DNA of 32,051 nucleotides from an uncultured Alphaproteobacteria bacterium (lineage in GTDB: Bacteria; Pseudomonadota; Alphaproteobacteria; HIMB59; GCA-002718135). The stretch lies in the NCBI GenBank assembly GCA_902577945.1, contig CACHBB010000013.1, forward strand, positions 1 through 32,051, written 5' to 3'. The position numbers were made by a program, and so were the translations under genes. This document shows, piece by piece, positions 12,768 through 32,051 of the stretch; positions within the stretch are counted from its first letter, which is position 1, and every line of letters starts with the position of its first letter. The notes beneath the pieces were generated by a model. It saw only the letters and a list, made by a program, of their open reading frames with translations. It did not search any database and had not been told where the DNA came from.

Positions 12768-14171
12768 TTATAAATCCTCTACAGTTGCAAAAGAACCCTT
12801 AATTGCAGAAGCGGCAGCAATTGCGGGGCTCACAAGATGTGTTCTACCTTCTCTACCTTGTCTACCTTCAAAATTTCTATTTGATGTTGAGGCGCATCTT
12901 TCCTGAGGTTTTAATTGATCTGGATTCATTGCTAAACACATAGAGCAACCAGGTTCTCTCCAATCAAATCCTGCTTCAATAAAAATTTTATCTAAACCTT
13001 CTTGTTCAGCTTGTTTTTTTACTAGACCTGAACCAGGAACTATCATTGAGTCTACTGAAACTTTTTTTCCTTCTACAACTCTTGCGACTTCACGTAAATC
13101 CTCTATTCTTCCATTCGTACAAGAACCTATAAAAACTTTATCAATTTTAATTTTTTGAATTTCTTGCTCAGGTTCTAGACCCATATATTCAAGTGAACGC
13201 TCCATAGCTTTTTTTCTGTTTGGATTATTTTCTTCTTGAGGGTTTGGAACTCTTCCGTTTATTGAAACGACATCTTGTGGACTTGTTCCCCAGGTGATTT
13301 GAGGGGATATATCTTCAGCTTTAATTATAATTTCTTCATCGTATTTTGCACCCTCATCAGATGGGAGTGATTTCCAGAAGTTTATAGCATTATCCCAATT
13401 TTTCCCTGATGGAGCATATGGTCTGCCTTTGATATATTCAAAAGTCTTTTCATCTGGAGCTATTAATCCAGCTCTTGCCCCTGCTTCAATACTCATATTG
13501 CAGATAGTCATTCTTCCTTCCATTGAAAGAGAAGAAATTGCATCACCAGCATATTCAATAACATATCCTGTACCTCCAGCAGTTCCAATCTTACCTATTA
13601 TATGGAGTATAATATCTTTAGCTGTAACACCTAAATTAAGTTTACCATTAACAGAAATTCTCATGTTTTTAGCAGGCTTTTGAATTAATGTTTGAGTAGC
13701 TAAAACGTGCTCTACCTCACTTGTTCCTATACCAAATGCTAATGCTCCAAATGCTCCATGAGTTGCAGTATGACTATCTCCACAAACAATTGTCATTCCT
13801 GGTTGAGTGATACCCTGTTCTGGTCCAACTATATGAACAATACCCTGCCTACTATCTAATAAGGGGAAAAGTGTAACATCAAAGTCCTTACAGTTTTTTT
13901 CTAGTGTCTCAACCTGAATTCTACTTTCTTTATTTTTTATACCTTTAGATCTATCAGATGTTGGCACATTATGATCAGCTACTGCAAATGTACTCTCAGG
14001 TCTTCTTACCTTTCGATTGTTATTTTTTAAGCCTTCGAAAGCTTGAGGACTTGTAACTTCATGAACTAAGTGTCTGTCAATATATATAAGACATGTTCCG
14101 TCTTCTTGTTTATCAACAAGATGATGTTCCCAAATTTTATCAAAAAGAGTTTTATTATTATTTGTTGTCAT
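12768..14171 (-). CDS. leuC: 3-Isopropylmalate dehydratase large subunit
   Basis: Iron-sulfur catalytic subunit of the leucine-pathway isomerase, a member of the aconitase family. The start is placed at the ATG at 14169-14171 ([17 protein letters not shown]), giving 467 residues. The frame is open for 32 further codons, but those lie within rplS and are an off-frame reading of its acidic tail. The 4Fe-4S ligands are in [14 protein letters not shown] and [33 protein letters not shown] and the catalytic region are intact. It overlaps the rplS stop by 14 bases. Confidence 0.96.
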
Positions 14172-14763
14172 CCGATTTATTTTCGGCTGCTTTATCCTCT
14201 TCTTTACTAGATTCCTCTGCAGCTTCTGCTTTAGATTCTTCTGCTGGTTTAGCTTCAGCTTCTTCAATTTTCGTATCTTCTAATTTTCCTTCGACTTCTC
14301 CAGTTTTTGGTTCTTCTACAGCTTTGGTATCAGTATCTGCAGTTTTTGTTTCTTCTACATGCGGACTTTCTTCAATATACTCGTATTGATCAGCTTCATC
14401 ACCTCTATCTTTATCTGCAATTCTTGCTTTCTTTCCTGACAATTCTCTTAAGTAATATAACTTAGCTCTTCTTACATCACCTTTTCTAGCAACTTCAATC
14501 TTTTCTACTAATGGGCTAAATAAAGGAAAAACTCTTTCAACTCCTTCTCCGTGAGATATTTTTCTCACTGTAAAATTAGAGTTTACTGAATTATTTTTTC
14601 TTGCAATACAAACACCTTCAAATGCTTGAAGTCTTGACTTACTTCCTTCTGTAATTCTTACAGTAACTTTTAGAGTATCACCTGGACGAAAAGCAGGAAC
14701 TCTTTTCTTAGAAGTAAGTTTTTCAATTTGTTGTTTTTCAAATGTCTCTAATAAATTACTCAT
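14158..14763 (-). CDS. rplS: Ribosomal protein L19 with long acidic C-terminal tail
   Basis: Large-subunit protein L19. Residues 1-118 form a complete L19 ([63 protein letters not shown]). They are followed by an 83-residue tail made almost entirely of Glu, Lys, Ala, Asp and Thr. L19 is usually about 115-130 residues, so the tail nearly doubles it. It is low in complexity and likely disordered. It overlaps trmD upstream by 8 bases and leuC downstream by 14. Confidence 0.96.
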
Positions 14764-15984: not shown

Positions 15985-16440
15985 TTATTCTTTTTTAGCT
16001 TCTGCGTCTTCTGCTTTTGGTTCTTCAGCAGGTTGTGCATCTTCAGCTGGCTTAGCTTCTGCGTCTTCTGCTTTTGGTTCCTCTGATGCAGCTTTAGCAG
16101 CTTCTTCTTTTTCTTTAGCTGCAGCTAAACGTTCCTGTGCTTTTTTCTTAGGTAGATGTTTTTTTGTTTTTTCAGTAATAACTGGTTTTTCCATAACACC
16201 AAGATTGCTAAGAAAAATAGAAATTCTGTCTGAGGGTTTTGCTCCTTTTGAAATCCATTCTTTAGCTTTGTCTAAGTCCATTTTAACTCTATCAGCACTA
16301 TCCTTTGGAAGCATTGGATTATAAGTTCCAATTTGATCTATAAATTTTCCATCTCTGGCTCTTCTAGAGTCAGCAACTACTATTCTATAAAATGGTCTTT
16401 TCTTAGCACCACCTCTTGATAATCTTATTCTTACTGGCAT
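15985..16440 (-). CDS. rpsP: Ribosomal protein S16 with acidic, repetitive C-terminal tail
   Basis: Small-subunit protein S16: MPVRIRLSRGGAKKRPFYRI, VVADSRRARDGKFIDQIGTY, then the conserved WISKGAKPSDRI at about 62-73. The S16 core ends near residue 100. Residues 101-151 are an Ala/Glu/Lys tail in which EEPKAEDAEAK occurs twice (about 120-130 and 139-149). The repeat is exact at DNA level. It lies 12 bases downstream of ffh and 14 upstream of rimM. Confidence 0.97.
   Translation of the reverse strand: MPVRIRLSRGGAKKRPFYRIVVADSRRARDGKFIDQIGTYNPMLPKDSADRVKMDLDKAKEWISKGAKPSDRISIFLSNLGVMEKPVITEKTKKHLPKKKAQERLAAAKEKEEAAKAASEEPKAEDAEAKPAEDAQPAEEPKAEDAEAKKE
15995..16080. repeat. 29-bp direct repeat within rpsP tail
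   Basis: Bases 15995-16023 are repeated exactly at 16052-16080, with a 57-base period. They encode the two copies of the EEPKAEDAEAK unit in the S16 tail. An exact match of synonymous positions as well as amino acids points to a recent duplication or conversion and makes tail length liable to vary between relatives. Confidence 0.85.
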
Positions 16441-29985: not shown

Positions 29986-30852
29986 TCAAATAAAAAATTC
30001 TTTATTTTGTTGAGAGATTTCTAAGATAGATTTTTTCAACTTTTCTAACGCTTTTGTTTCTATTTGTCTTACTCTTTCCTTACTTATCTTTAGCTTTTTT
30101 CCCAGTTCATCAAGCGTGATACTTTTTTCTTTAAATTTCCTTAGACGAATTATAGTTTTCTCTCGATCATTAAGTGTATCTATAGCAGCATTGATATAAT
30201 TGGATTTAATTTTTTTATCATTATAGCTTTCATAAGTTTCTTCAGGGTTCTCTCTATCATCTGAAAGTAAGGACATAAGATCATTTCCACTTTCATCATC
30301 AACTGTTTGATTTAAATGTAGATCACCTCCAGTTAGCCTAGACTCCATGTTTTGAACCTCAATGGATTTTACGTTAAGCATATTCGATACTTGATTTATT
30401 TCATCTTGACCCATAAAATCTCTGGAAACATCATTTATTTGTTGTTTGATTTTTTTTAAATTAAAAAAAAGAGCTTTTTGAGATGCAGTTGACCCAGTTC
30501 TAACAACAGACCAGTTTTTTAGAATGTAGTCTTGAATTGAAGCTCTAATCCACCATGACGCATAAGTTGACAATCTAAAATCTTTAGAGGTATCAAATTT
30601 ATCAAGTGCATGCATTATTCCTAAAACTCCCTCGTGTATGAGATCGTCAATGGATAAACCATAGCTAGAGTATTTCCTGGCATACGAAACTGCAAGTCTA
30701 AGATATGAATCTAGAATTTTTTGAAGAGATTTTGGATTTCTATTATCTCTCCAATCATTAATTAGTTTAAATTCATCATCTTTTTCCAAAATTGCTGCTT
30801 TCTTAGAAAACTCAACTAATTTATTTGAAAAAATATTATATTTTGTTGCCAT
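29986..30852 (-). CDS. rpoH: Heat-shock sigma factor RpoH (sigma32)
   Basis: A sigma70-family factor directing heat-shock transcription. It has 288 residues. Region 2 contains DDLIHEGVLGIMHALDKFD and STYASWWIRASIQDYIL. The sigma32-specific RpoH box QKALFFNLKKI begins at about 125. Region 4 ends with LKISKERVRQIETKALEKLK. It is downstream of the phosphoesterase-like gene, with 31 bases between, and probably has its own promoter there. Confidence 0.95.
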   Translation of the reverse strand: MATKYNIFSNKLVEFSKKAAILEKDDEFKLINDWRDNRNPKSLQKILDSYLRLAVSYARKYSSYGLSIDDLIHEGVLGIMHALDKFDTSKDFRLSTYASWWIRASIQDYILKNWSVVRTGSTASQKALFFNLKKIKQQINDVSRDFMGQDEINQVSNMLNVKSIEVQNMESRLTGGDLHLNQTVDDESGNDLMSLLSDDRENPEETYESYNDKKIKSNYINAAIDTLNDREKTIIRLRKFKEKSITLDELGKKLKISKERVRQIETKALEKLKKSILEISQQNKEFFI

Positions 30853-30857
30853 ACTAT

Positions 30858-30887
30858 ATTATACGAAAAATTTCGTAATTGGATCAA
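30858..30887 (-). promoter_or_regulatory. Candidate rpoH promoter with embedded inverted repeat
   Basis: On the minus strand TTGATC (plus 30882-30887) and a perfect TATAAT (plus 30858-30863) are 18 bases apart. The -10 ends only 5 bases before the rpoH ATG, so the transcript would be leaderless or nearly so. No Shine-Dalgarno is seen before the ATG, in agreement. The spacer contains the inverted repeat TACGAAA-TT-TTTCGTA (plus 30862-30877), placed like an operator. Confidence 0.45.
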
Positions 30888-31696
30888 TTTGACTCAAATA
30901 ATTCTATAATTTCTCCATTTTCTCGAAAAATTCCCGAAAATATAATATTATTTGTTAATGGTTGTTTAAAAAGTGTGCAAACTACTTTGTTTTTTGAGAG
31001 CTCTAATTCATTATTTTGATTTGATTGATATCCTCTAACTATTCTTACGAAAGAGTTGTAAGGTTTATTTATTTTAGAAAAATCTTGATATCCCCACCAA
31101 AAGCAATCGTTCTGAGCAGATAGTGGTCTTTTTATATCTACACCTCTATTTACAAAAAGAATTTTTTTGGAAGATGAATATGCAGCATGTTTTAAATTTA
31201 AAAAAAATTCTTTATGTCCAGGATTTTCTTGAAGAATTTGATTTAGTTTTGAAATCCATTTAGAAATAACAACTGTTCCAGATGATGAAACTGATATAGC
31301 TTCTTCTTTTGAAAGACCGTACGAACCGAGAGTTTTATCAACTCCATGTTCAAACATCCAATTTACAATTTCCACAGGATTAGGTGCAATGTGTAATTGA
31401 AGTAATTTACTGAACATTTCCTCTTGCGCACCTCTTAAAAAAACTATTTCAGATGGTTTTATTTTAAACTTTGCCATTAAATTTAAACGTAATTCTAATA
31501 TGCTGGATAGAGTTTCTTTTGAACTAACACCAAGACCAATAACGTTACCAAGAAAAACTAATTTATCATCTTGTTCAAAATTATTAATTATAAATTTTTT
31601 TATTGAATTGAAAGCTTTAATATTAGAGTGAATGGAGCCTATAGCCCAAATCCTTCCGGTATTTTTAAATTCAACAAAATTACTTTCCTCTGCCAA
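30884..31696 (-). CDS. Metallophosphoesterase-fold protein, probably catalytically dead
   Basis: A 270-residue protein with the layout of a calcineurin-like (PPP/ApaH type) phosphoesterase but a ruined metal site. GDxHG has become GSIHS (20-24; only His23 kept). GDxxDRG has become GNVIGLG (50-56), and GNHE has become GAQE (89-92). The later FVHAG is FVNRG (about 181-185), and GHT is GYQ (222-224). Hydrophobic strands between the motifs are retained (RIWAIG, KLVFLG, EIVFLRG, ILFVNRG), so the fold is likely intact. Translation must start at TTG (31694-31696), because the carD stop lies in the same frame only one codon upstream. Likely a regulatory or binding protein. Confidence 0.7.
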   Translation of the reverse strand: MAEESNFVEFKNTGRIWAIGSIHSNIKAFNSIKKFIINNFEQDDKLVFLGNVIGLGVSSKETLSSILELRLNLMAKFKIKPSEIVFLRGAQEEMFSKLLQLHIAPNPVEIVNWMFEHGVDKTLGSYGLSKEEAISVSSSGTVVISKWISKLNQILQENPGHKEFFLNLKHAAYSSSKKILFVNRGVDIKRPLSAQNDCFWWGYQDFSKINKPYNSFVRIVRGYQSNQNNELELSKNKVVCTLFKQPLTNNIIFSGIFRENGEIIELFESN

Positions 31697-31699
31697 AGC

Positions 31700-32051
31700 T
31701 TATTTTTTATTTAATATTGATTCTATTTTTTCAGTTGATTGAAAATAATCCGTTTTTTCTACAGCTGCTACTTCTCTTGCCAATCTTTCAATTGCAACCT
31801 GAAACATTTGCCTTTCACTATAAGATTGCTCTGCCTGACTATTTTTTCTAAATAAATCTCTTACTACTTCTGCAATCTTTATAGGTTCACCTGAAAATAT
31901 TTTAGTTTCATATTCTTGTGCTCTTCTACTCCACATTATTCTTCTAATTTTAGGTTTCAGCTTTAATACTTCAAAAACATCATCGATGATTTTTTTTGAA
32001 GATATTTTTCTTAATCCAACCTCTTCTTGTTTATCGAGAGGAACTCTTATT
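31700..32051 (-). CDS. carD: CarD-like RNA polymerase-binding regulator, partial (N-terminus outside window)
   Basis: Reading in from the window edge (first whole codon at 32050) gives IRVPLDKQEEVGLRKISS, then RRIMWSRRAQEYETKI, SGEPIKIAEVVRDLF, EQSYSERQMFQVAIERLAREVAAVE. That is the C-terminal two-thirds of alphaproteobacterial CarD; the N-terminal RNA polymerase-interacting Tudor-like domain is cut off. CarD proteins bind the polymerase beta subunit and stabilise open complexes, chiefly at rRNA and growth promoters. It lies just upstream of the phosphoesterase-like gene and rpoH. Confidence 0.93.
   Translation of the reverse strand, partial: IRVPLDKQEEVGLRKISSKKIIDDVFEVLKLKPKIRRIMWSRRAQEYETKIFSGEPIKIAEVVRDLFRKNSQAEQSYSERQMFQVAIERLAREVAAVEKTDYFQSTEKIESILNKK

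Follow-up and report, generated by a model that had tools for sequence, protein, structure and literature searches.

What does a protein do that has the look of a phosphatase, has lost the metal site of one, and is encoded between two transcription factor genes? The question is raised by a gene in the window, the 32,051-nucleotide stretch of alphaproteobacterial DNA analysed here, which lies between carD and rpoH and which we call pPPP (pseudo-PPP phosphatase). A reading made from the sequence only had described an uninterrupted frame of 270 codons with a TTG start, separated from the TAA of carD by a single GCT codon. Our analysis agrees on all of these points (Table 1).

Table 1. Features of the carD–pPPP–rpoH region in window coordinates, with the pPPP motifs listed in order of translation
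Feature	Position	Strand	Basis or remark
carD (CdnL), 3' part	31700..32051	(-)	5' end outside the window; ORF list, orthologues upstream in class loci
carD stop TAA (31700-31702) and one GCT codon	31697..31702	(-)	3-nt spacing permitting reinitiation at TTG
pPPP (pseudo-PPP phosphatase), TTG start, TGA stop	30884..31696	(-)	270 aa; ORF list, family alignments, dN/dS, fold matches
pPPP start codon	31694-31696	(-)	
Motif I, GSIHS (canonical GDxHG); D lost, H kept	31625..31639	(-)	alignment and hhalign columns
Motif II, GNVIGLG (canonical GDxxDRG); bridging D replaced by N, second D by G	31529..31549	(-)	alignment
Motif III, GAQE (canonical GNHE); M2 ligand N and catalytic H lost, E kept	31421..31432	(-)	alignment
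FVNRG (canonical FVHAG); M2 ligand H replaced by N	31142..31156	(-)	H to N exchange invariant in the window's family
RGY, then Q (canonical HGH[T]); M2 ligand H replaced by Y	31028..31036	(-)	alignment
rpoH, second RpoH paralogue of the genome, next gene downstream of pPPP	29986..30852	(-)	ORF list

The two RpoH proteins of the window's genome are 43% identical; the one encoded beside pPPP is the divergent copy, and the other is found at G000:C10:31757-32545. Elsewhere in the window, two genes identified from their translations as bL19 and bS16 (14158-14763 and 15985-16440) carry long acidic low-complexity C-terminal tails with EAK/PAE repeats.

Taken alone, the window protein matches nothing significantly in Pfam, in NCBIfam or among PDB sequences, its best weak matches being to metallophosphoesterases and ApaH; with NF001204 (ApaH) it reaches 14.1 bits against a curated cut-off of 176. 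Pfam and NCBIfam searches over 70 members of the family gave scattered sub-threshold matches, none of them convincing, and the commonest weak NCBIfam match is the symmetrical Ap4A hydrolase (ApaH) model (21 of 70 members, best 1.1e-6). A search of a plasmid collection returned one weak match, annotated as a metallophosphoesterase. When the class-wide pPPP alignment is compared with seven intact alphaproteobacterial PPPs by hhalign, the two match over the whole domain with a probability of 99.9% (E 2e-32). We also obtained two AlphaFold2 models (mean pLDDT 71.2 and 76.5, pTM 0.72 and 0.79), and every match listed by Foldseek against the PDB is a PPP enzyme (probability 0.99–1.00), with no other fold among them; a better match to an unrelated fold, named earlier as a refuting outcome, thus did not turn up. 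The putative diadenosine tetraphosphatase 2qjc is the best PDB sequence match and is also among the top structure matches. The TM-scores amount to 0.3–0.5 because residues 185–247 are poorly modelled, and what carries the fold assignment is thus the first 180 residues together with the profile match. On these grounds, pPPP is, by descent, a member of the PPP-fold (calcineurin-like) superfamily.

Alignment with the seven intact enzymes shows that, of the six metal ligands D, H, D, N, H and H, His23 alone is left in the window protein, so that the earlier statement that all but one of the recognisable metal or catalytic residues are substituted is correct. None of the patterns that define the PPP catalytic family, GDxHG in motif I, GDxxDRG in motif II and GNH(E/D) in motif III, is present in the window pPPP. 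The [ILV]D[ST]G signature of bacterial-type PPPs (PMC535813) is likewise absent from the window protein; most class members have an LDxG-like element in which x is mostly Gly or Ala.

We counted the residues at these positions in an alignment of 93 pPPP members and canonical rows, 80 of the members coming from outside the window's family. Not one of the 93 has the ligand Asp of motif I or the bridging Asp. Among the 80 members from outside the window's family, the motif I Asp is replaced throughout (by Ala in 55 and Ser in 19) and His23 is kept in 70; position 51, that of the bridging Asp, is Asn in 76 and Gly in four, and position 54, that of the second Asp of motif II, is Gly in all 80. In the same set, the Asn of motif III is lost in nearly all members, the catalytic His at position 91 is Gln in 73, and Glu92 is present in 80 of 80. 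The HAG His (His183, a ligand of M2) is kept in 38 and the last His (His223) in four, with Arg221 found in 74. The phosphate-binding Arg of motif II is kept in 24 of the 80, and the Arg of the canonical W-x-R is not retained after the WW of pPPP.

These losses do not all carry the same weight. Since active ApaH also lacks the second Asp of the GDxxDRG motif (PMC535813), the loss of this residue alone proves nothing. The change of the bridging Asp is the strong evidence among the ligand losses: the engineered exchange of GDVIG for GNVIG in an ApaH-like phosphatase abolished its decapping activity (PMC8220851). Trp17, Gly50, Gly54, Arg70, Leu87, Gly89, Glu92, Gly118, Trp200, Trp201 and Gly222 are invariant in the class-wide alignment, and His23, Asn51, Arg88, Gln91, Glu93 and Arg221, among others, are nearly so. 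In an entropy ranking of 266 positions, Asn51 comes 26th and Arg221 39th, and variation is seen at positions 90, 183 and 223; one part of the old active site is thus tightly constrained in its new form and another part is free.

Within the window's own family, the substituted motifs are invariant or nearly so in 80 distinct pPPP homologues (consensus WAxGSxHS, FLGNxIG, FLRGAQEEM, FVNRGVD and RGY). Nei–Gojobori dN/dS in this family is about 0.05–0.15, with values of 0.016–0.146 for the closest pairs and a median of 0.15 over pairs with dS <1.5. In the order to which the family belongs, probably that known as HIMB59/AEGEAN-169 (PMC10308909), 89 of 162 genomes match; the matches are confined to the window's family, where they occur in all six of the genera shown, and pPPP is absent from the sampled second family of the order. 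Many assemblies of the window's family are incomplete, and absences there mean little.

The profile of the window's family also matches 102 of 289 alphaproteobacterial genomes (99 strongly, with E <1e-40, and three weakly), in a class sample that was drawn by taxon and is no census; judged by the count of family codes, the matching genomes span more than 50 GTDB-level families. When the class profile was run against a phylum-wide sample of 299 genomes, strong matches (1e-101 or better) were found within Alphaproteobacteria only, and no pPPP was found outside this class in the sample; after a gap, canonical PPPs follow from 5e-19 down, those of other classes included. Two genomes, G188 and G310, carry both pPPP and a canonical PPP. 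In a maximum-likelihood tree with a midpoint root and a bootstrap that is not fully settled, the 93 pPPP rows split from seven canonical rows with 100/100 support, and on this support the family is monophyletic with respect to the canonical alphaproteobacterial PPPs. We conclude that pPPP is an old, conserved, class-wide family whose substitutions are kept by selection. With its catalytic residues lost and its fold kept under purifying selection, the protein would qualify as a pseudophosphatase, and it is predicted to be inactive; the earlier suggestion of a PPP-like protein retained by selection for a non-catalytic role is supported.

How pPPP is translated is suggested by its start. Of the 80 distinct homologues of the window's family, 75 start with TTG, five with GTG and none with ATG, and in most cases no in-frame start other than this codon is available from the upstream stop to motif I; for rpoH, the start is ATG wherever it was scored (72 cases, by a crude call). 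In 77 of the 80 homologues, pPPP starts 0–7 nt past the carD stop. Reinitiation behind carD at a weak start, as put forward in the sequence-only reading, is hence plausible, and the weak start would probably hold the level of pPPP below that of CarD. The non-ATG start is conserved while its spacing to the carD stop varies, which suggests selection for a weak start. The other product that had been considered, a CarD fusion made by readthrough of the carD stop, is rejected. Although carD and pPPP do have a common frame in the window, this is incidental: the frame is shared in only 20 of the 80 homologues and differs in 60, the carD stop may be TAA, TAG or TGA, and no fused gene was seen. Readthrough or fusion is therefore not a conserved feature.

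We then considered the neighbours of the gene across the class. Where 2 kb or more of upstream sequence is available, 58 of 72 class loci have carD on the same strand at a distance of up to 500 nt upstream, and 58 of 72 have fdxA, encoding a 7Fe-type ferredoxin, within ~3.3 kb; 25 of 73 class loci have rpoH at up to 900 nt downstream. In 26 class genomes that lack pPPP and have a carD locus, fdxA adjoins carD in 20, and carD is followed by rpoH in eight. We read this as an old fdxA–carD–rpoH cluster in which pPPP stands between carD and rpoH in some lineages. Window-type RpoH is absent from some genera of the window's family, and three genomes without it (G061, G127 and G128) have kept pPPP. 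For this reason, and because of the modest count of downstream rpoH genes, the link of pPPP with carD is firmer than that with rpoH; the link with fdxA is as frequent as that with carD, but less close. The position between two transcription factors had been taken as a sign of a regulatory or nucleotide-sensing role; the weight laid on rpoH is only weakly supported. Further upstream, homologous helicase genes recur in a larger conserved neighbourhood, helicase–fdxA–carD (class loci such as L224, L253 and L143, of HIMB59 type), which occurs in genomes without pPPP as well.

Two further kinds of role were considered. CarD ends in AA in 60 of the 74 class loci where it neighbours pPPP; in the window's family, it ends in KK, NK or TK (window 31700-31711), the AA apparently having been lost there. 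In Caulobacter CdnL, the AA C-terminus is a ClpXP degron. Presence of this degron and presence of pPPP do not go together: pPPP is kept in the window's family, from which AA has gone, and AA is also found in genomes without pPPP, so that a role as adaptor of the degron is rejected. The second kind of role is in phosphoprotein signalling. Genomes of the window's family usually have no PPP besides pPPP; intact canonical PPPs are patchy there, occurring in four of 100 genomes (G015, G127, G061 and G081; L289-L292) and as one fragment (G035), with pPPP itself accounting for the remaining matches, and no Hanks-type kinase (PF00069) scores over the cut-off in 12 genomes of the family. A partner-phosphatase or phosphoprotein-signalling role is therefore unlikely in this family, be it as a regulator of an active PPP paralogue, a role that is conceivable elsewhere since G188 and G310 have both proteins, or as a phosphoprotein reader for Hanks kinases.

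The explanation that we favour, with confidence that is evenly balanced for the whole of it, is that pPPP is a non-catalytic binding regulator that is coupled to carD translation and acts on CarD or RNA polymerase. Its pseudoenzyme part is well supported. The protein would have the PPP fold without the ability to hold a two-metal centre, which makes activity as a metal-dependent phosphatase or Ap4A hydrolase very unlikely; some lineages might bind one metal, given how often His183 and His23 are kept. It would be made by translation coupled to that of carD via the weak TTG or GTG start just past the carD stop, and it would bind a protein or ligand and so regulate CarD or the CarD–RNA polymerase initiation complex. 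The computations show the relationship in fold, the loss of ligands, the age of the family, the purifying selection, the linkage with carD and the pattern of start codons; from these we infer the absence of catalysis, the coupling and, above all, the target, CarD or RNA polymerase. Adjacency of genes does not prove that their products interact, and fdxA has its link to pPPP as often as carD does. Nor is pPPP a general requirement of CarD, since 26 of 30 genomes tested that lack pPPP have carD. The remodelled former active site would serve as the binding pocket, with His23, Asn51, Gln91, Glu92 and Arg221, judged by homology, probably forming one pocket.

What such a pocket might bind leads to the possible, if unlikely, explanation that pPPP is a nucleotide sensor, in which Ap4A, (p)ppGpp or some other nucleotide is bound, unhydrolysed, by the former active site and the signal is passed on to transcription. 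The weak matches to the ApaH model and the rank of 2qjc in both PDB searches are consistent with this, as are the polar residues that are strongly conserved at the expected metal positions (Asn51, Gln91, Glu92, Arg221 and His23), and an adaptor sensitive to ppGpp has been postulated, but not found, for the turnover of CdnL (PMC11034885). However, the Arg residues that would hold a phosphate, in motif II and after WW, are not conserved. The same pocket could also still be catalytic, if it used a single metal, a rearranged site or another chemistry. His23 and Glu92 are retained, as is His183 in many members outside the window's family; the bridging change alone inactivates a relative (PMC8220851), and here the motif I Asp, the bridging Asp, the Asn and His of motif III and the last His are lost together in nearly all members, which leaves this explanation improbable. 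Pseudoenzymes in which catalytic residues have migrated are known in general.

Turning from the pocket to the genes, pPPP could regulate RpoH, the heat-shock sigma factor encoded beside it, for instance as an anti-sigma factor or as a partner resembling a chaperone; rpoH is the next gene in the window and in about one third of the class loci. We consider this rather unlikely: carD and rpoH adjoin without pPPP in the eight control loci mentioned above, so that the link with rpoH appears to be inherited from the older cluster, and pPPP persists in genomes without window-type RpoH. Finally, pPPP might be a phosphatase that decayed recently and is being lost, in line with the few genomes of the window's family that have no match, even though their assemblies are incomplete. 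This is hardly credible. The substituted motifs are invariant, dN/dS is low, the frames are full length everywhere, and there is no intact orthologue among the 93 members; the search for close relatives with intact metal motifs, proposed earlier as a check, thus did not bear out decay, and the class-wide conservation refutes it. Compared with these alternatives, regulation of CarD or its complex with RNA polymerase by a non-catalytic pPPP is the explanation that we retain. A bolder form of it, in which PPP pseudophosphatases throughout the class are co-translated, ligand-gated partners of CarD that set its activity or stability at RNA polymerase and possibly respond to alarmones, is speculative and, in our judgement, quite unlikely.

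With the canonical alphaproteobacterial PPP Ser/Thr phosphatases (e.g., L190, L193 and L283-L288), pPPP has in common the fold, a full-length profile match, the spacing and the elements WxxxGGxxTLxSYG and FVHAGIDPxxPLxxQ. Unlike pPPP, which has lost five of the six metal ligands, these enzymes keep GDxHG, GDxxDRG, GNHE, HAG and GHT; pPPP also differs from them in forming its own clade (100/100) and in adjoining carD. ApaH and the ApaH-like phosphatases (ALPH; 2qjc, 9ojd, NF001204) show weak similarity to pPPP in sequence and structure and, like pPPP, lack the second Asp of GDxxDRG (PMC535813); however, they keep the bridging Asp (GDVIG in the ALPH of S. arctica), whereas pPPP has GNVIG, the form of the inactive mutant (PMC8220851). 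The Rhizobiales-like phosphatase RLPH2 (5vjv) is among the best PDB matches of pPPP in sequence (8e-5) and in structure, but it is an active enzyme with intact motifs, and those of pPPP are lost.

In Caulobacter, SpoT and ClpXP are needed for the clearance of CdnL during starvation; neither its trigger nor its route is known, and the existence of an adaptor has been suggested (PMC11034885). The control of CarD thus has missing parts. Our results would make pPPP a lineage-specific candidate for such control, although the Caulobacter study does not make it one of the missing parts. There is no Pfam or NCBIfam model for pPPP, and in the literature on open licence we found neither a description of the pPPP family nor a bacterial PPP-type pseudophosphatase. 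Pseudophosphatases in general have a phosphatase fold that is kept by selection after the catalytic residues have been lost, as in pPPP, and are described mostly in eukaryotes (PMC10211241). Those with a PPP fold are known mainly from eukaryotes as well, and pPPP is an apparently old alphaproteobacterial one, encoded beside a global regulator of transcription.
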